NCBI RefSeq assembly: GCF_002154725.1
Contig: NZ_MTAW01000080.1
Location: forward strand, 1-64,000
DNA from: Nostoc sp. 106C
Lineage (GTDB): Bacteria; Cyanobacteriota; Cyanobacteriia; Cyanobacteriales; Nostocaceae
DNA length: 64,000 bases
Reading direction: 5' to 3'
Both the position numbers and the translations under genes were made by a program. The notes below the pieces were generated by a model. That model saw only the letters and a list, made by a program, of their open reading frames with translations, was not told the DNA's origin and did no database searches. The stretch's first letter is position 1; every line of letters begins with the position of its first letter. This document shows positions 37,876 through 47,990 of the stretch, one piece after another.

Positions 37876-38187
37876 AGGAGTATTTTTGATATATAGCTAG
37901 CTATTTTTCTTGTTATACTCTTAACTCTTCATTAAGTGCAAGCGTCATTTTATCTATATGTATTAATCAAAAATACATAAACTAATTATAAAATTACCTC
38001 TAGCTTGAACAATTACTCAAAAACGCGGTGGTCTGCTGATATTAAATTTGGTAAAAAACAATATTTGCTCAATAATATAAAATAAAATAATTGGCGATTC
38101 TCAGTAGATTTACGCTCAAAGGCTTAAATCGGTTTACAAATACTTTAAATTTAATTATAGATTGCAATTCTTGGAGACTGTGCTGGA
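37876..38187. other. AT-rich intergenic region
   Basis: No gene seen. A perfect palindrome ATAGCTAGCTAT lies at 37893-37904, 18 bases from the methyltransferase start, and could be an operator or chance. The rest must contain the promoters of the two divergent genes. Confidence 0.35.
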
Positions 38188-39699
38188 ATGAATGAAGAGT
38201 CACAGAAACAACGGGTAGTAGTGGTAGGTGCAGGTTGGGCTGGTTTAGGCGCAACCTACCACTTGGCAAAACAAGGATATGATGTGACGCTTCTAGAAGC
38301 AGGGTCTTATCCTGGCGGACTGGTGGCTGGTTGGAAAACATCCGCAGGACGTTCTGTAGAAGCAGGTATACATGGCTTTTGGTATCCTTATAGAAACATT
38401 TTTGCACTGATCAATGAATTAGAAATTAATCCTTTTACATCTTGGACTCGTTCTGCCCAATATTCCCCTGCGGGGTTGGAAGTAGAATCGCCAATTTTTC
38501 AAGATTTACCGCGACTCCCCTCACCGCTAGGAACTTTTCTCTATACTCAGTTTCAGCGTCTACCATTAATTGACCGTCTGAGTGCCTTACCTTTACTTTA
38601 CTCTGTGGTTGATTTTGATAATTCTCATGATGCTTGGCGGCGTTACGATTTTGTAACGGCGCGGGAATTATTCAAAGATTTTGGTGTTTCGGCGCGACTG
38701 TATAAAGAAGCGTTTGAACCAATGTTATTGGTAGGCTTGTTTGCTCCTGGCGAACAGTGTTCAGCCGCAGCAACTTTAGGGATGTTGTACTTTTTTATTC
38801 TGGCTCACCAGCCTGATTTTGATGTAGTTTGGTGTCGGGGAACTGTGGGAGAAAAAATATTTCGTCCTTGGGTAGAACGTATTGAAAAAGCTGGTGCCAA
38901 GGTTTTATCTAAGCGGCGAGTAACTGACTTAATTGTTGATAGTAACAATCGTGCAACAGGTGTAGTTTGTGATGATGAAGTGTTTAACGCTGACGCTGTA
39001 ATTTTTGCAGTTGGCATCACTGGTATGAAAAAAATTGTTGCCAATAGTCCTAGCTTACAAAGTCGTCAAGAGTTTCGCAATTTAAATAATTTAGGCGCAA
39101 TTGATGTTTTAGCAACTCGGTTATGGTTTGACCGCAAAATTAATATTCCTCGTCCTTCTAATGCTTGTTTTGGATTTGATGCCACTACAGGATGGACATT
39201 TTTTGATTTAAATACACTTCATGATGAATATAAAAATGAAGCAGGAACGGTAATTGAAGCTGATTTCTATCATGCAAATCAGTTTCTCAATTTAAGTGAT
39301 GAAGAAATTGTGCCAATAGTCCAGCGTTATTTAACAACTTGCATACCAGGGTTTCAAGAAGCAAAGGTAATCGACAGTAGTGTAATTCGTTTAGCAAATG
39401 CGGTAACGCATTTTGCACCTGGAAGTTATCGTTATATGTTGCCAGCCAAGACAAGTTTGGTAAATGTGTTTATGAGTGGAGATTGGATTGTCAACCGTCA
39501 CGGCTCATGGTCGCAGGAAAAGGCTTATGTTACTGGTTTGGAAGCAGCAAACTTGGTAGTGTCTTATTTAGGCAAGGGTCAGCCATGTAAGATTTTACCT
39601 GTAGAAGCAGATGAAGCGCATATAGAAGTAGCGCGATCGCTCAATCAAACAGTCCGTCACTTGAGCAAATCTATTCTGCCTGACTTTTGGTTGCCTTAG
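38188..39699 (+). CDS. FAD-dependent oxidoreductase, carotene-desaturase-like
   Basis: 503 residues. VVVVGAGWAGLGATYHLAK (about 10-28) plus VTLLEAGSYPGG is the dinucleotide-binding signature of the amine-oxidase/phytoene-desaturase family; VEAGIHGFWYPYRNIF resembles zeta-carotene desaturase. The C-terminal MSGDWIVNRHGSWSQEKAYVTGLEAAN is the FAD-binding end. It may desaturate or isomerise an isoprenoid, but it does not match CrtP or CrtQ closely enough by eye to give a name. Confidence 0.88.
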   Translation: MNEESQKQRVVVVGAGWAGLGATYHLAKQGYDVTLLEAGSYPGGLVAGWKTSAGRSVEAGIHGFWYPYRNIFALINELEINPFTSWTRSAQYSPAGLEVESPIFQDLPRLPSPLGTFLYTQFQRLPLIDRLSALPLLYSVVDFDNSHDAWRRYDFVTARELFKDFGVSARLYKEAFEPMLLVGLFAPGEQCSAAATLGMLYFFILAHQPDFDVVWCRGTVGEKIFRPWVERIEKAGAKVLSKRRVTDLIVDSNNRATGVVCDDEVFNADAVIFAVGITGMKKIVANSPSLQSRQEFRNLNNLGAIDVLATRLWFDRKINIPRPSNACFGFDATTGWTFFDLNTLHDEYKNEAGTVIEADFYHANQFLNLSDEEIVPIVQRYLTTCIPGFQEAKVIDSSVIRLANAVTHFAPGSYRYMLPAKTSLVNVFMSGDWIVNRHGSWSQEKAYVTGLEAANLVVSYLGKGQPCKILPVEADEAHIEVARSLNQTVRHLSKSILPDFWLP

Positions 39700-39775
39700 G
39701 GCCTAGCTCAAAAATTCCGTATCTTTTAAATTATCCTCTCTACTGCTTAATTTTTGAATACCTACTGAGGCATCT

Positions 39776-40228
39776 GTGATGACTACCTATCAAGATGTAC
39801 CAATACTTATGCAAAATAGACTGCTTGCTAAATTAGCTCCTGATGAGTTAAAACGCTTGCATCCTCATCTAGAGATAGTTTCGCTCTCACTGGGCCAGGT
39901 GATCATCTCGCCTAATGAGCCGATCTCTTTTGTCTATTTTCCTATTAACTCATTGCTCTCTGTGGTCACGGTGATGGAGAACGGCTCAACAGTCGAATCC
40001 GGCTGTATCGGGCGTGAGGGGATGGCAGGTGTGTCAATACTTTTAGATACAAACACAACACCGATGCAGACTTTGGCACAAATCCCAGGACAAGCCGTGC
40101 GTGTCAAAGCTTCTATCATCAGACAGGCCTTCGACACTGGCGGCTCGCTGCACAAGCTTCTCCACCGTTACATACATACATTTAGGACTTACGCATTGAC
40201 AGGAAATGGACTATGTGAATTGCCTTAA
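39776..40228 (+). pseudogene. Crp/Fnr-family regulator, N-terminal half (split gene)
   Basis: The first 137 codons are a typical cyanobacterial Crp/Fnr sensor domain (LAPDELKRLHPHLE, SLGQVI, VYFPINSLLSVV, GCIGREGMAGVS, GSLHKLLHRYIHTF). At 40184 homology ends and 15 foreign codons follow to TAA at 40228. The missing helix-turn-helix half is found at 44314-44621. The junction sequence CATTTA (40179-40184) is repeated at 44308-44313 in the same phase. Confidence 0.85.
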
Positions 40229-40708
40229 AGGGAAGTGAAGCGGGATAAATTAGCATAGGTCAAAGCCTCATGCTGGGAAGCCTACTCCCAGTATACTTTG
40301 CCTAAAAGAAGACATTCTCAGCAAAGTTAAGCATCTAAAAATCCTTGAGTGAAACACTTGTCTAGTTATGTTTGAATGTCTAGATTGCAATAGGTGACAG
40401 CTTCCCTAGCATGACGCCAAGATACAAGCGAGAACTAACTAACTTAACACCAACCTCATTCTTTAGTTAGAGGTTAGGTTTAGTTGAAAGCTTTAAGGTT
40501 CAGGTATTCATTTGTAGTAGTTAATTTTTTTAGTAGTCTAGAAGGCTGATACGAAGGGTAAATTTTTTCAAGAGACTTCTACATACCTCTCGCTAATAAG
40601 CTTTTATCCTACACTGTTCTCCGCTCCTGGTATTAGGGTTTGGACAAATTTGTTTGTCCAAACTGCGATAAACAAAGCACCATACAGCAAGCACGGGAGA
40701 CAATAGAC
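40229..40708. other. Gene-free left part of the insertion
   Basis: About 480 bases with no gene I can support. It starts with an insertion-sequence-like terminus and contains several short inverted repeats (for example GGGAAGCCTACTCCC near 40274 and AACTAACTAAC/TTAGTTAGAGGTTAG near 40434-40475), consistent with remnants of a mobile element and the promoter of the SRPBCC gene. Confidence 0.4.
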
Positions 40709-41212
40709 ATGAGCCAACCAATTAAAGTTGAAAAAACGGTAACGATTAACAAACCAGCAGAGGAACTCTACCGCTTTTGGCATAACTTTGGGAACTTGCC
40801 GCGCTTCATGAAGCATCTCAAAGACGTAAAAGTACACGATAACAAGCGAGAGTCCTCCGGACACGCTACGCGAACGCACTGGACGACCAGTGGGGTGTTA
40901 GGTGGAAGTGTTGAATGGGATGCAGACATCATTGAAGATCGGGAAAACGAATTGATTGCTTGGGCTTCGGTTGAAGGTGCAGATGTTGATAACTCTGGTT
41001 CTGTCCGCTTTCAGCCAGCACCCGCCAATCGCGGTACACAGGTAAAGGTCGTCACGGAATATAACCCGCCTGGTGGTGCGATTGCATCTGTGTTTGCCAA
41101 ACTCTTCGGCGAAGAACCAGAACAGCAGATTGGAGATGATTTACGCCGCTTCAAAATGCTGATGGAAGCAGGCGAGATTGCAACAACAGAAGGTCAACCA
41201 AAGGGAGGTTAA
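40709..41212 (+). CDS. SRPBCC-family (START-like) protein
   Basis: 167 residues from ATG 40709, which has GGGAGA eight bases upstream; the longer frame from 40640 has no such site. [30 protein letters not shown] is the usual beginning of the polyketide-cyclase/dehydrase-like SRPBCC fold, and the C-terminal amphipathic helix ([14 protein letters not shown]) closes the hydrophobic pocket. Ligand unknown. Five bases before the alcohol-dehydrogenase gene, so co-translated. Such proteins often precede zinc alcohol dehydrogenases in stress-related islands. Confidence 0.88.
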
Positions 41213-41217
41213 AGATT

Positions 41218-42396
41218 ATGAAAGCAGTTTGCTGGCACGGCGCTAACGATGTACAAGTTGATACAGTACCCGATCCAAAAATCATTAACCCGCGTGATGC
41301 GATTGTTAAAATCACGTCAACGGCGATTTGCGGTTCTGATTTACATCTTTATGATGGTTACATCCCCACGATGGAAAAGGGCGACATCCTTGGTCATGAA
41401 TTTATGGGGGAGGTCGTCGAGCTAGGTAGTGCCGTCAAGAATGTAAAGATAGGCGATCGCGTTGTCGTACCTTTTACCATTTCCTGCGGCTCGTGTTTCT
41501 TCTGCAAAAAGGATTTATGGTCGCTGTGCGATAACTCCAACCCTAACGCTTGGATACCGGAAAAACTCATGGGTCATTCTCCATCTGGTCTTTTCGGCTA
41601 CTCCCATATGATGGGTGGCTATGCTGGAGGTCAAGCTGAATATGCCCGCGTTCCCTTTGCCGATGTCGGTTTATTCAAGATTCCTGATGGACTAGCAGAC
41701 GAACAAGTCCTGTTTCTGACGGATATCTTCCCCACTGGCTATATGGCAGCGGAAAACTGCGATATCGAGCCAGGAGATACTGTAGCGATCTGGGGCTGCG
41801 GTCCAGTCGGACAGTTTGCCATTAGAAGTGCATATATGCTAGGTGCCGAGCGCGTCATTGCAATCGATCGAGTTCCCGAACGCCTACAGATGGCGAAAGA
41901 CGGCAAGGCAGAAGTCCTTAACTATGAGGAAGTTGATGTTGGTGAAGCATTGAAAGAAATGACGGGTGGTCGCGGCCCCGATGCTTGCATGGATGCTGTG
42001 GGAATGGAAGCCCACGGTACGGGCCCTGATGCGTTTTACGACCAGGTAAAGCAAGCCGTGCGTATGGAAACCGACCGACCCACTGCCCTAAGGCAAGTGA
42101 TTGTTGCCTGTCGCAAAGGTGGCACTGTTTCAATTCCTGGTGTTTACGGCGGCTTTGTAGACAAGATACCGATGGGTGCTGCCATGAACAAAGCTTTGAC
42201 GTTTAAAACCGGACAAACGCACGTTCATCGTTACCTGCGCCCGCTACTTGAGCGCGTCCAAAATGGCGATATCGACCCATCTTTTGTAATCACTCACCGT
42301 TTACCGCTAGAGCAAGCACCGCACGGCTACGAAATTTTCAAGCACAAGAAGGACAACTGTATCAAGATCGTGCTCAAGCCAGGTCAGGCTGCCTAA
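41218..42396 (+). CDS. Zinc-dependent alcohol dehydrogenase, formaldehyde-dehydrogenase-like
   Basis: 392 residues of the medium-chain dehydrogenase family. Catalytic zinc ligands: Cys in TAICGSDLH (about 38) and HEFMGEVVE (about 61-62). Structural zinc cysteines are partly visible ([18 protein letters not shown]). The coenzyme motif is [10 protein letters not shown] (about 197). The long insert after residue 255 ([19 protein letters not shown]) is typical of the glutathione-independent formaldehyde dehydrogenase-like subgroup. Probably detoxifies an aldehyde or alcohol under stress. Confidence 0.92.
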
Positions 42397-42450
42397 AACC
42401 CCACAAGAACACGAAAAAACCAAGTCTAGCCAACACTTTAGGAGGTAGAG

Positions 42451-43014
42451 ATGACAGAAGAACTCACAAATAAGAAAGTTGCCATTCTGGTTACAGATGG
42501 CTTTGAGCAAGTTGAAATGACTCAACCAAAGCTTGCCCTTGAGTCAGCAGGTGCTCAAACCCACATTATTTCACCGAAGAGCGATCGCGTTCAGGGCTGG
42601 AACCATTATGACAAGGGGGATTTTTTCCCAGTAGATGTCCCCCTCGATCAAGTAAATTCAGCCGACTATGATGCCCTCCTGCTTCCCGGTGGTGTTGCCA
42701 ATCCAGATCAACTTCGGACTCAAGCTAAGGCGATCGAGTTTATAAAGTCTTTCTTCGATACTGACAAGCCGGTAGCGGTGATCTGCCACGGACCTTGGAC
42801 TCTGATCGAGGCAGATGTGGTGCGCGGACGGCGGCTCACCTCGTGGCCGTCGCTCAAGACCGATCTCCAGAACGCAGGTGCCCAGTGGGTAGATCAGGAA
42901 GTTGTAGTTGATAGCAACCTCGTGTCGAGCCGCAAGCCAGACGACATCCCAGCCTTCAATCGGGAAATGATCGAGCTGTTCAGCCATGCAGGGCAGGTAC
43001 GGCAGATGGTGTGA
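42451..43014 (+). CDS. DJ-1/PfpI-family protein (YhbO-like)
   Basis: 187 residues. VAILVTDGFEQVEM has the conserved Glu, VAVICHGPWTLIEA the nucleophilic Cys (about 114) with neighbouring His, and the last helices match. Family members are general stress proteins; glyoxalase or deglycase activity has been proposed. AGGAGG-like ribosome site (TTAGGAGGTAG) is nine bases before ATG 42451. Part of the insertion cargo. Confidence 0.92.
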   Translation: MTEELTNKKVAILVTDGFEQVEMTQPKLALESAGAQTHIISPKSDRVQGWNHYDKGDFFPVDVPLDQVNSADYDALLLPGGVANPDQLRTQAKAIEFIKSFFDTDKPVAVICHGPWTLIEADVVRGRRLTSWPSLKTDLQNAGAQWVDQEVVVDSNLVSSRKPDDIPAFNREMIELFSHAGQVRQMV

Positions 43015-43178
43015 GGACTCGGAGCGTTAGGAGGATAGGTATGGAACAAGCAGGGGGAGTACAGAATGTCTTTTCTCCCTCTGCCTTAAGAGCTTCCTCA
43101 GCCCAAGGTGCTTGCCACCATGCAAAGTTTGCTTGGTGGACTACTAGGTCTAGTTGTATACATCCTGAGGAGAGCATT

Positions 43179-44249
43179 ATGCGAATCGCTCAAGTTGCTC
43201 CATTGTGGCAACAAGTACCGCCTCCTGCTTATGGAGGAATTGAGTTGGTGGTTAGTCTCTTGGCTGAAGAACTCATTCGTCGTGGTCATGAAGTGACTCT
43301 GTTTGCATCGGGTGATTCGAGTAGTTTTGCCAAGATAGAATCTGTTCACTCACAGGCATTGAACTTAGACCCTACCGTTAAGGAACCAAGCGTTTACGAA
43401 ACACTGCAGCTAATGCGAGTGTACGAACAGGCGCACAAGTTTGATGTCATTCACTCTCACGTTGGCTACCCTGCACTACCCTACGCCAGATTGGTGGAGG
43501 CACCGACCATTCATACGCTGCATGGCATCTTGACACCAGATAATGAAAAGGTGTTCAAGTATGCTCGCTCTCAGCCGTTTGTCAGCATTTCCAACGCGCA
43601 GCGAGAACCAAGAGTGGGACTCAATTACGTTGCCACTGTCTACAACGGCATTAATCCAATGACTTACAAGTTTTACCCGCAGGCAGAGTCGTCTCCCTAT
43701 CTTGCATTTCTGGGTCGAATCTCACCTGAGAAGGGGGTGCATTTAGCGATCGAAATTGCTAAACGTTCGGGCTGGCACTTAAAGATAGCAGGTAAAGTCG
43801 ATGTAGTTGATGTGGATTATTTCGTGCAACAGATCAAACCTTACATTGATGGAACGCAGATTGAATACCTGGGAGAAGCTAACCATGCCCAAAAGAGCCT
43901 CCTGATGGGAGGAGCAGTTGCGACTTTATTCCCGATTACCTGGCGTGAACCCTTTGGACTGGTGATGATTGAGTCGATGGTAACAGGTACACCTGTGATT
44001 GCTATGAATTTGGGCTCCACCTCTGAAGTGATTGTTCACGGTAAGACAGGATTCTTGTGTCGCTCAGTCAAAGACTGTCTCTCTGCCATTGATAGAGTGC
44101 CTGAGCTAAACCGCTACGCCTGCCAAGAGCATGTGCTGAGAAACTTCACGATTAAGCAGATGACAGATGGCTACGAAGCTGTCTACAGCAAGTTTGCTAG
44201 TCTTACAACCCAGGACCTTTGTATGATGTACCCCGAAACCTGGACATAG
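43179..44249 (+). CDS. Glycosyltransferase family 4-like protein
   Basis: 356 residues from ATG 43179 (MRIAQVAPLW), with TGAGGAG at 43165-43171; the 56 codons before it, which overlap the DJ-1 gene end, look untranslated. PPPAYGGIELVV is the GT4 N-terminal loop, FDVIHSHVGYPALPY and LHGIL follow, then FLGRISPEKGVHLAIEIAKR in the nucleotide-sugar domain, and EPFGLVMIESMVTGTPVIA is the E-x7-E motif. Retaining transferase of unknown acceptor. Last gene in the insertion. Confidence 0.9.
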   Translation: MRIAQVAPLWQQVPPPAYGGIELVVSLLAEELIRRGHEVTLFASGDSSSFAKIESVHSQALNLDPTVKEPSVYETLQLMRVYEQAHKFDVIHSHVGYPALPYARLVEAPTIHTLHGILTPDNEKVFKYARSQPFVSISNAQREPRVGLNYVATVYNGINPMTYKFYPQAESSPYLAFLGRISPEKGVHLAIEIAKRSGWHLKIAGKVDVVDVDYFVQQIKPYIDGTQIEYLGEANHAQKSLLMGGAVATLFPITWREPFGLVMIESMVTGTPVIAMNLGSTSEVIVHGKTGFLCRSVKDCLSAIDRVPELNRYACQEHVLRNFTIKQMTDGYEAVYSKFASLTTQDLCMMYPETWT

Positions 44250-44313
44250 GCGTAAATGGAAGGTTCGCGCAACCAGGGGCAACCTTGTAAAATTTAGTAA
44301 AAATAACCATTTA

Positions 44314-44621
44314 TTGTCTTTACTTCACAAAGCACAGCCTGCAACCGTCTTCATCATATAGAAGCAAGGCTGAGCCGCTGGTTGTTAATGAGCAGTGACG
44401 GTATAAATTCAGACACACTTGCTCTCACGCAAGAATTTATGTCCACAATGCTTGGCGTTCGCCGTTCTGGAGTCAGCGAAACTGCTAGTAAACTTCAGAG
44501 CAGAGGCTTAATCTCTTACCAGCGCGGGCAGATACAGATTGTTGACAGAAAAAGCTTGGAAAAAACCGCTTGCGAATGTTATGGCATAGTTAAGGCAGAA
44601 TACAAGCGCTTGTTTGATTGA
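44314..44621 (+). pseudogene. Crp/Fnr-family regulator, C-terminal half (split gene)
   Basis: From 44314 the frame reads IVFTSQSTACNRLHHIEARLSRWLLMSSDG, the dimer helix and hinge, then TQEFMSTMLGVRRSGVSETASKLQSRGLI, the helix-turn-helix, and ends IVDRKSLE...RLFD. It completes the N-terminal half at 39776-40184. It could be translated alone from TTG 44382 or ATG 44388 as a DNA-binding domain without sensor, but a good ribosome site is not visible. Confidence 0.85.
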
Positions 44622-44696
44622 AGTACAACTCAGTTTCTTCAATGCCGCTGATTGCCAAGATGCGCAGAGATGAAATTCTAAAATATAGGATTTCGT

Positions 44697-44711
44697 TATC
44701 GAATTTCGATA
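44697..44711. promoter_or_regulatory. Palindrome TATCGAATTTCGATA upstream of chrA, candidate operator
   Basis: A 15-base inverted repeat (TATCGAA / TTCGATA) sits 43 bases before the ChrA start, a suitable place for a repressor site. No regulator gene of a matching type is adjacent, except the split Crp/Fnr, whose family binds different sites. Confidence 0.35.
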
Positions 44712-44753
44712 TATTATTTCTGTCAATGCCTTGACAGAATCAGGAGAATCACA

Positions 44754-45962
44754 GTGACGCAGGAAACTGAGGGTATCCAAGGAGAGCCTTCCTATAACGC
44801 TCTGACTCGCAGTCAGCAGCAGCAGCGATTAATCCAATTGGCAAGGGTGTTTTTGCGACTCGGAACGATCGCCTTTGGTGGCCCTGCTGCTCACATCGCC
44901 ATGATGGACAATGAGGTGGTAAATCGTCGTCAGTGGATGAGCCGAGAGAAACTGCTAGACCTGCTGGGGATTACAAATTTGATTCCAGGGCCCAACTCGA
45001 CAGAATTAGCCATTCACATTGGTTACGAACGAGGCGGATGGCGTGGTTTACTAATTGCAGGAAGCTGCTTTATTCTGCCTGCTATGCTCATTGTTTGGAC
45101 GCTAGCAGCAATTTACGATCGCTACCAGACAGTGCCGCAGGTGGAATGGCTGCTTTATGGGATCAAGCCTGTGATTATTGCGATCGTGCTGCAAGCTGTG
45201 TGGAATTTAGGTAAAAAGGCAGCCAAGGACTTGCCAACAATTATTGCAGGGATGACAGCGATCGCTGCCTACTTTGCGGGATTGAATGAAATTTTGGTGC
45301 TGATTTTGCTAGGTATCGCCGTCATGCTAGTAAAGAATTGGCATAGAGGACACACAACTGGGGCATTCCTCTTACCTTTCTCAGGTGTTTTGGCACAGGT
45401 TGGTAGTACGGCCGCCGCAGTCACGTCAGTCAGTTGGGTCAGCGTCTTTCTATTCTTTCTCAAGATTGGGTGTGTTCTTTATGGTAGTGGTTATGTGTTA
45501 CTGGCATTCCTACAACGGGATTTAGTCGAGCGTAATCATTGGCTGACCTCACAGCAGTTATTGGATGCTGTAGCAATTGGGCAGTTTACACCTGGCCCTG
45601 TTTTCACCACCGCAACATTCATTGGATATTTGCTGGCAGGAAATGCTGGGGCGATCGCTGGTACAATTGGGATTTTCTTACCAGCTTTTGTGTTGGTATG
45701 GGTAGTTAACCCTTGGGTTTCTAAGTTGCGTCAATCTCCTTGGGCTAGCGGATTTTTGGATGGTGTGAATGCGGCTTCTATGGGATTAATGGCAGGAGTC
45801 ACCTACACCTTGGGACGAGCTGCACTGCTAGATTGGTTAACAATTATCGTGGCAATTGTCAGTGCGATCGCAGTGTTCCGATTCAAAATCAATTCTGCTT
45901 GGTTAGTGTTGGCAGGAGGAACACTCGGACTAGCCTCACATATATTAGGATTCATTGGCTGA
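44754..45962 (+). CDS. chrA: Chromate efflux transporter ChrA
   Basis: 402 residues, the two-domain (long) ChrA form with internal duplication. Each half has the CHR motif: FGGPAAHIAMM and NLIPGPNSTELAIHIGYERGG in the first, YGSGYVLLAFLQ and GQFTPGPVFTTATFIGYLLAG in the second; ten or more hydrophobic helices. GTG 44754 has CAGGAGA seven bases upstream. Expels chromate using the proton or sulfate gradient, from established knowledge of the family. Confidence 0.92.
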   Translation: MTQETEGIQGEPSYNALTRSQQQQRLIQLARVFLRLGTIAFGGPAAHIAMMDNEVVNRRQWMSREKLLDLLGITNLIPGPNSTELAIHIGYERGGWRGLLIAGSCFILPAMLIVWTLAAIYDRYQTVPQVEWLLYGIKPVIIAIVLQAVWNLGKKAAKDLPTIIAGMTAIAAYFAGLNEILVLILLGIAVMLVKNWHRGHTTGAFLLPFSGVLAQVGSTAAAVTSVSWVSVFLFFLKIGCVLYGSGYVLLAFLQRDLVERNHWLTSQQLLDAVAIGQFTPGPVFTTATFIGYLLAGNAGAIAGTIGIFLPAFVLVWVVNPWVSKLRQSPWASGFLDGVNAASMGLMAGVTYTLGRAALLDWLTIIVAIVSAIAVFRFKINSAWLVLAGGTLGLASHILGFIG

Positions 45963-45965
45963 TTG

Positions 45966-47990
45966 CTAAATTATGTAAGCCTGCACTTGAGATTTACTCA
46001 ATTCACTGACCAGACGATGAGCTTGGTGCTTGTAGAGTGGGTACTGTAAAGTTTTTGGCAGTTGGCTCATGAGTATTCTGGCTGTATGTATATCACAACC
46101 AGAAATTCGCGCAATTACTGCTGCGCCTTCAAACGCGGCTTCTGATGAAAACGCAGATTCGACTCTTACCAGTAATTGTGCAGATGCGATCGCTCCCCGT
46201 TCGACTCTTTGCAATCCTTCAATAGTTGCCAAAACCACCAGGCGATCGCCTACAGCCAGCTTGATATCATCGGAGGGCATAAACTTAGAAGTTGATTGAC
46301 TAGCTTTGGCGTGAAGAATTGGCACTATCCCATAACCGTAAGCAATCTCAGCCAGCAATTTGCCGTTGAGGGTATCATCAGCTTCAATTTGATATTCAGT
46401 CACTAGTGTAGTTTGGTTATTTAGACGAAATAGATTGAGGACATTTTCACCAAACGCCGCCGCCGCAAATGCTTCAGCAGCAAGAGCATAAACACCCAAA
46501 ACTCTGGCATAGGGTAGCAGTCGCGCCACATTCTCGCTAAAACGGGGGTCGAAGGTGCGGATTATCAAATTGGCTGTAGGATTGCTAGCATGAGTCATCA
46601 ATCCAATTTCTAAATTAGTTACCTCATCATCAGTTACGACAATAACGCTTTTAGCAGTGGCAAGATTGACTTGGCTGAGGGCATTTTTGATATTTCCTAT
46701 AATGAGAGGCATTGTGGACAATATGTCTGAGTCAAGTTCAGTGGCATGAACGCCTACCAAAGGTTGCTTAAGTTCTTGCAATAGCTGGGCCACACGCTTA
46801 CCTACTCTCCCCAAGCCAATTAGCACTACATGGTCTGCTTTTGGTATTGGTAGACGACGCCGAGAAAACTGGAATTTAGCAGCTAAGACGCGTTCAGTCA
46901 TGATGGCATAAAGAATACCAACAAAAACTGTACCCGCCACAGTCTGACTGATGCTGAATAGATGCAGCCACCAAGGAATTTCAAAAGGCAGTTGTAGCTG
47001 TCCAAATAGGTTGTCGTAGCCACCGATGCTTAAAACTAGGGAGACATTCAGAGCATCTTGGAAGCTGATTTTAGGATATTGCAACTTGTATAGCAAAGTC
47101 CCACAGAAAAACCAACTCACCATAAAAATCCCGCCGACTAAGGCTACGCGACTGGTTTGGCTACCTTCTTGCCAAAACTGAGTCAGCTGGTGTCGCAGAT
47201 TTTGCCACCTCATACCAGAGATCCTTGCACCCCACAATTGCCTGCGACTAGTAACGGGTTGTACTGTGCGAGTAGCAAGGTGATCGGTTACTTCAATATA
47301 AGCAACAGTGTCTCCAGGAAAGATTTGAGTGTGGGGTTCCCATTGATAAAATGCTTTGGGTAGAGGATTTCCAGCTCTAGCGTGAGCAAAAACTCGTCGG
47401 TGAGCAGTATTAATTTCGTGAATTTGGGGATGCGTACCCCAACGATGGGAAACATCTACGGGTGCTCTAAACACTCGTAGTAAACGGTTTTCTAGAGTGA
47501 AAAATCCTCTAGTTTCACTGCTGAGAGCTGCAAGGGCAAAGCTTTTGGCTGGTAATTGCGTAGCTTCAAAAGCGACAAAATTTCCTAGATTTTGACTGAG
47601 TAATTCATTGAGATTTTCTTGTGCTGAGCGAATAACTAACCGAACATTGGGATTGAGCGATCGCGCGGCAAATGCTGCGGCAATATTCACGCGTTCATCA
47701 CTAGTTACAATCAGAATTGCCCGACACTGCCGAATTCCCGCCTGTTCTAATGTTTTGGGTTGACAACAGTCACCAATTACTAGTTTGTCTACTAAATCAG
47801 GTAATTCTGGAACTTCCCATCTTTGAATATTTGCAACTTCAATAGCATTTACCTTGACGCCAAACTCTTTCAGCACAGACACACAATACTGCCCCAGGTT
47901 GCCAAGCCCACAAACTAAAAAGAAGTTTGTATCTATAGTTGCATTTTGTCCCATAATTAATGCTGATTTGTTTTGGACATTTAATATCAT
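45966..47990 (-). CDS. RCK/TrkA-domain protein with a central two-helix channel-like segment
   Basis: 674 residues. First TrkA-N domain: LVCGLGNLGQYCV (about 25-37). Then a TrkA-C-like part, and at about 275-365 two strongly hydrophobic helices (ALVGGIFMVSWFFCGTLLY; TVAGTVFVGILYAIM) around a loop with SIGGYDNLFG, which resembles a potassium-channel pore filter (TxGYG) but is altered. A second TrkA-N domain (VLIGLGRVGKRVAQ, about 390) and C-terminal TrkA-C follow. Likely a nucleotide-gated potassium channel or regulator. ATG 47954 (MGQNATID) is a possible alternative start. Converges with chrA, three bases between stops. Confidence 0.85.
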   Translation of the reverse strand: MILNVQNKSALIMGQNATIDTNFFLVCGLGNLGQYCVSVLKEFGVKVNAIEVANIQRWEVPELPDLVDKLVIGDCCQPKTLEQAGIRQCRAILIVTSDERVNIAAAFAARSLNPNVRLVIRSAQENLNELLSQNLGNFVAFEATQLPAKSFALAALSSETRGFFTLENRLLRVFRAPVDVSHRWGTHPQIHEINTAHRRVFAHARAGNPLPKAFYQWEPHTQIFPGDTVAYIEVTDHLATRTVQPVTSRRQLWGARISGMRWQNLRHQLTQFWQEGSQTSRVALVGGIFMVSWFFCGTLLYKLQYPKISFQDALNVSLVLSIGGYDNLFGQLQLPFEIPWWLHLFSISQTVAGTVFVGILYAIMTERVLAAKFQFSRRRLPIPKADHVVLIGLGRVGKRVAQLLQELKQPLVGVHATELDSDILSTMPLIIGNIKNALSQVNLATAKSVIVVTDDEVTNLEIGLMTHASNPTANLIIRTFDPRFSENVARLLPYARVLGVYALAAEAFAAAAFGENVLNLFRLNNQTTLVTEYQIEADDTLNGKLLAEIAYGYGIVPILHAKASQSTSKFMPSDDIKLAVGDRLVVLATIEGLQRVERGAIASAQLLVRVESAFSSEAAFEGAAVIARISGCDIHTARILMSQLPKTLQYPLYKHQAHRLVSELSKSQVQAYII

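Follow-up and report, generated by a model that had tools for sequence, protein, structure and literature searches.

A Crp/Fnr-type gene of Nostoc sp. 106C is interrupted by an insert best read as part of an IS701-type cargo transposon

A 64,000-nucleotide stretch of the Nostoc sp. 106C genome (contig NZ_MTAW01000080.1, forward strand; hereafter, the window) contains a Crp/Fnr-type regulator gene that is interrupted by a net insertion of 4,129 bp. The best reading of the insert is a truncated IS701-type cargo transposon, of which the left part remains; transposons of this type occur in several filamentous cyanobacteria. Insertion of this transposon, insertion of a Tn3-type element, and later deletions explain the split gene with a probability of about 0.9 in our estimate. 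On this account, the split regulator is the wreck of a transposon and not a new excision element.

The interrupted gene and its intact relatives

The frame of the Crp/Fnr-type gene starts at 39776 or 39779, is lost at 40184, and is back by 44314; the window belongs to contig C173 of a draft assembly, in which a genome of 8.66 Mb is spread over 240 contigs. Joining 39776-40184 to 44314-44621 by a script yielded 717 nt, or 239 codons with the stop. The split, the size of the insert, the CATTTA at both junctions (40179-40184 and 44308-44313), and the 239-codon frame that an earlier note on this DNA had described were thereby reproduced. The sensor half matched cNMP_binding with an E value of 4.7e-6 and 26.9 bits, slightly below the Pfam cutoff of 27.5.

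A search of 58 genomes with the sensor half, the source genome (G000) included, found four with a match: G000, two genomes of the same genus (G006 and G001), and G053, where the match was a 25-bp scrap only. In G006, the sequences corresponding to 38001-40184 (95.8% identity) and 44308-45997 (96.4%) form one continuous stretch with a single CATTTA. Judged against this site, no flanking bases were lost by the insertion. The gene is also whole in G001, which is 79% and 82% identical to the two sides. Because the gene is unbroken in both genomes, the two halves belong to one gene, and the nearest relative that has this gene (G006) lacks the insertion. Intact homologues free of the insert, which the earlier note had suggested looking for, are therefore present in relatives; two separate regulator genes, which it had named as the finding that would speak against a split, are found in neither G006 nor G001. 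A diverged Crp/Fnr paralogue, with a frame open across both halves (71% and 69% DNA identity), lies on contig C126 of the Nostoc sp. 106C genome.

The left border and the transposon family

At 40183, the insert begins with the terminal end TAGGACTTACGCA; its opening bases, TAGGACTTACGCATTGACAGGAAATGGACTATGTG, are also found at borders elsewhere among cyanobacteria. When the genome collection was scanned for the exact pattern of the left end, 10 stretches matched, three of them in Scytonema, two each in Fischerella and Nostoc CHAB 5824, and one each in Chlorogloeopsis, Calothrix, and Amazonocrinis. The base matching 40183 starts the left end in Nostoc HK-01, CHAB 5824, Scytonema NIES-4073, Fischerella 9431, Amazonocrinis, and Chlorogloeopsis, and family members adjoin unrelated flanks in other genomes. 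Pieces of 40183-43048 are 95 to 96% identical to plasmid1 of HK-01, and pieces of 40183-44250 are 92 to 97% identical to the CHAB 5824 copy (L050, L052).

The fuller copies bear TAGGACTTACGCA ends. The 7,964-bp copy of CHAB 5824 consists, in order, of the left end, an SRPBCC gene, two alcohol dehydrogenase (ADH) genes, PfpI, a glycosyltransferase, an aldo/keto reductase, the transposase, and the right end; its IS701-type transposase frame contains two stops. The copy on the chromosome of Scytonema NIES-4073 spans about 8.5 kb: the left end is followed by cargo that lacks the glycosyltransferase, then by a transposase frame that is unbroken, and then by the right end. Plasmid3 of this strain carries a 4,259-bp version without the transposase. 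A partial, 224-amino-acid Calothrix transposase matched NF049921 (IS701_2) with an E value of 3e-72 and 243.7 bits, against a cutoff of 250. The transposase of the fuller copies is best read as a DDE (IS701-type) enzyme and not a site-specific recombinase.

Two kinds of end were found, in which the first 39 bp are the same or nearly so and the sequence then diverges. Next to its transposase, the insertion sequence (IS) keeps a different left end of its own, and the cargo unit has a copy of the right end as its outer left end. Because of this copy, the cargo presumably moves between two right-type ends.

We compared nine end pairs, including three G001 IS copies (a fourth was left out), and found identical 5-bp flanks in five: the copies of CHAB 5824, NIES-4073 plasmid3, and the NIES-4073 chromosome (GATAC) and the plain IS copies L105 and L112. 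Exact 5-bp target duplications are thus present in three cargo-bearing copies. The element end begins with TA, or with CA in the G001 IS. Since the TA is part of the element end elsewhere and the duplications are 5 bp long, CATTTA is the CATT of a 5-bp duplication followed by a coincidental TA, supplied at the left junction by the element and at the right junction by the gene. On these grounds we rejected CATTTA as a true target duplication of 6 bp. The earlier note had taken a one-off insertion with target duplication as the simpler view; this view is supported, with the duplication taken as 5-bp ACATT and not as a clean 6-bp CATTTA. The window would then be expected to hold ACATT twice; the left copy is present, and the right one reads CCATT. 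An origin of the left border from a separate miniature element was likewise rejected, as the same end elsewhere bounds a whole cargo unit.

With a draft assembly of 240 contigs, a split gene might be produced by a chimeric join. We give this explanation almost no credence, since the left border coincides with an element end that recurs in other genomes, the insert is accompanied by a remnant of the duplication, and the flanks run collinear with G006.

Four of the 11 open reading frames (ORFs) of at least 60 amino acids in the insert matched their families (Table 1), which bears out the SRPBCC, zinc ADH, DJ-1/PfpI, and glycosyltransferase genes named in the earlier note. The other seven had no Pfam match at E ≤ 0.001, and no transposase or recombinase was recognized among the 11, in line with the note's remark that none was visible. 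The ADH of the window corresponds to the second of the two ADH genes in the fuller copies and is only distantly like glutathione-independent formaldehyde dehydrogenase. Judged by the family names, the gene set suggests a role in aldehyde or glycation stress. The glycosyltransferase is present in CHAB 5824, Chlorogloeopsis (to the contig end), and G095; none was detected at the loci of HK-01, NIES-4073, Calothrix 4105, and Fischerella 9431, and it is therefore an optional module. In CHAB 5824 (L052), the glycosyltransferase module lies between two copies, each of about 75 bp, of the end of PfpI (window 42978-43048), and this duplicated stretch suggests a separate capture event.

Repeats resembling the terminal end occur at 25 other loci of the Nostoc sp. 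106C genome, four of which were inspected, with nine copies of AGGCTTTACGCAATGACA and 12 copies of AGGACTTACGCAAGGACT; a search of this genome for the 19-base left end gave no second exact match. Adjoining the left end of the Scytonema plasmid copy is an annotated transposase remnant (L015, 5706-5984), which, by eye, we take to resemble the C terminus of an IS110-type enzyme.

The right border and the proposed history

An inverted right terminal end is absent from the window: with up to six mismatches allowed, the end gave one match on the positive strand and none on the negative strand. Homology to CHAB 5824 ends at 44250, at the stop codon of the glycosyltransferase. The aldo/keto reductase, the IS701-type transposase, and the right end are gone from the insert, as is one of the two ADH genes present in CHAB 5824, Chlorogloeopsis, and HK-01.

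In place of the reductase, transposase, and right end stands a Tn3-family terminus (Table 1), the outer end of which faces left and the interior of which, toward the regulator, is cut at the regulator junction. Among 145 genomes of the family, 17 contained a repeat that matched this terminus at E ≤ 0.001, that of Nostoc sp. 106C among them; the latter holds no other match at this threshold. On pNOS3756_1 of Nostoc NIES-3756, this repeat (36 bp) in inverted orientation (0 and 1 mismatch; positions 1851 on the positive and 5869 on the negative strand of L120) bounds 4 kb with an annotated Tn3 transposase and a tyrosine recombinase. No identical 5-mers were seen beside the ends of this copy when the flanks were compared by eye. 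The examined loci contain 34 distinct copies of the repeat, of which 19 have the long form seen in the window, and 18 of these 19 continue with shared sequence. The closest copies read AACCCTTTATTTAG where the window reads AACCATTTATTGTC; TTTATT is common to both. For the right border, whose 67-bp repeat also occurs in plasmids, an end of the cargo transposon or an IS200/IS605-type end had been considered and was dropped, as the sequence there is a Tn3-family terminus that continues inward elsewhere.

Several loci (L053, L055, L056, L060, L061, and L063) carry these Tn3-type terminal repeats as inverted pairs about 200 to 400 bp apart. Some paired-repeat loci are on plasmid records (Nostoc CENA543, Nostoc HK-01, and Crinalium). 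They look like Tn3-derived miniature elements.

We propose that a cargo-bearing IS701-type transposon entered the Crp/Fnr gene at ACATT and would thereby have generated a 5-bp target duplication. Since a Tn3 terminus stands in the place of the lost modules, we suggest that another insertion followed and was itself followed by a deletion. A Tn3-family element or a miniature derivative of one would have inserted at the stop codon of the glycosyltransferase. The deletion may then have removed the remainder of this element together with the aldo/keto reductase and IS701-type transposase genes and the right end, as far as the second base of the right duplication. Its route was probably by way of TTTATT, a short direct repeat that the gene shares with the Tn3 interior. 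A separate deletion would have removed one of the two ADH genes. We infer both the order of these events and the former presence of the lost modules at this site.

Several observations weigh against this history. The right duplication matches at four of five bases, and a deletion endpoint inside the duplication is a coincidence unless it was guided by the short repeat. Four of the nine end pairs had unmatched flanks, namely Fischerella 9431, the G001 IS copies L113 and L117, and, in the Calothrix 4105 cluster, the IS, which has an internal left end. The duplications reported for IS701 in PMC2266710 are 4 bp long, as opposed to 5 bp here. No intermediate stage was found, nor any genome with the full element at this site.

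Alternatively, an IS701-type transposase from outside could have used the left end together with a surrogate right end in the Tn3 remnant, so that the insert arrived in one step with ACATT duplicated and one ACATT later became CCATT. Such an event would account for the CATT that stands exactly at both borders and for flanks that have lost no bases relative to G006. However, the right border is unlike the TAGGACTTACGCA end, one substitution is needed within the 5-bp repeat, and, of the 19 other long copies of this terminus, 18 run on into shared sequence beyond the junction point. We consider this one-step origin improbable and favor successive insertions and deletions.

Table 1. Features of the interrupted Crp/Fnr gene and its insert (window coordinates)
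Feature	Position	Strand	Basis
Crp/Fnr sensor half	39776..40184	+	Start GTG 39776 or ATG 39779; 95.8% identity to G006 over 38001-40184
Left target duplication copy, ACATT	40178..40182	+	5-bp rule of other family members; empty site in G006
Left outer end of cargo transposon	40183..40221	+	39 bp almost identical to the right end of fuller copies
SRPBCC / polyketide cyclase-dehydrase family protein	40709..41212	+	Pfam PF03364, E 4.4e-16
Zinc alcohol dehydrogenase	41218..42396	+	Best NCBIfam match fdhA_non_GSH, far below its cutoff
DJ-1/PfpI family protein	42451..43014	+	TIGR01382, above cutoff
GT4-type glycosyltransferase	43179..44249	+	Pfam PF00534, E 2e-23
Tn3-family terminus, outer 59 bp (or miniature element with the same ends)	44249..44307	+	Repeat matches; NIES-3756 copy
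Right target duplication remnant, CATT	44308..44311	+	The next TA is the gene's own
Crp/Fnr helix-turn-helix half	44312..44621	+	HTH_Crp_2, E 2.4e-15; gene intact in G006 and G001

Excision, known systems, and spread of the cargo

The nifD, fdxN, and hupL elements are heterocyst excision elements and carry site-specific recombinase genes of their own. The earlier note had likened the insert to them and proposed that its precise excision would repair the regulator. As with these elements, the insertion lies within a cyanobacterial gene that is whole where the insertion is absent. If excision were programmed in development, recombination between the CATTTA copies would restore the gene; the joined gene is indeed open and matches G006 and G001, and neither half has decayed, with eight synonymous and five replacing changes on the window branch, four and nine, respectively, on the G006 branch, and two unpolarized. 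However, a recent insertion would leave the halves just as intact, and their intactness is not enough to exclude excision. Unlike the known elements, the insert has no recombinase seen among its ORFs, has lost its right end, and does not recur at this gene in G006 or G001. Furthermore, the repeat is only 6 bp long and is explained by duplication and chance, and the insert belongs to a DDE-transposase family whose members stand beside unrelated flanks. The transposase is missing from this copy and was not found in the Nostoc sp. 106C genome or G006 with a query that was positive in five of the seven genomes searched together. Programmed excision therefore has a negligible probability, and the proposed repair finds no support. 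The insert is unable to move by itself, and we regard its precise excision as very unlikely. The regulator gene is no longer intact, and the insertion looks like an ordinary disruptive one rather than one that is reversed in development.

PMC2266710 sets IS701 apart from IS4, gives it a length of 1,400 to 1,550 bp and, for almost all IS701 elements of that paper, 4-bp duplications, and describes passenger genes in the IS231 subgroup of IS4. The cargo family resembles IS701 in its transposase match (slightly under the cutoff, with a partial query), short duplications, and imperfect terminal repeats. It differs in the length of its duplications, in a plain IS of 1,191 to 1,269 bp, and in forms of 4.3 to 8.5 kb with the cargo outside the IS proper. 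As is reported for passenger-bearing ISs of the IS231 subgroup, genes unrelated to transposition have an outer terminal repeat on one side and the transposase gene on the other; here, however, the far left end is a 39-bp copy of the right end, and the IS retains a left end by its transposase. The Tn3-family transposon with a tyrosine recombinase on pNOS3756_1 shares the terminal 59 bp, of which the window keeps one terminus only. We found no description of this IS701-type cargo element in the literature searched, which left out most subscription papers.

A query of PfpI/glycosyltransferase cargo DNA matched 137 of the 145 genomes; among the matches listed, most were glycosyltransferase homologues of 66 to 73% identity, and at least eight of the 144 other genomes had an identity of at least 94%. 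Five of those eight are the Chlorogloeopsis, HK-01, NIES-4073, Fischerella 9431, and Calothrix 4105 copies. We think it somewhat probable that an undescribed IS701-type group captured a stress-type cassette with the help of a solitary right-end copy at the far side and that it disseminates the cassette among chromosomes and plasmids. The cassette would comprise SRPBCC, formaldehyde-dehydrogenase-like ADHs, DJ-1/PfpI, aldo/keto reductase, and, in some copies, the glycosyltransferase. With its recognizable ends and target duplications, the element would be a traceable vehicle for a possible carbonyl-stress gene set among filamentous cyanobacteria.

Directly downstream of the regulator, the ORF at 44754-45962 resembles, by eye, a chromate-transporter-type membrane protein.

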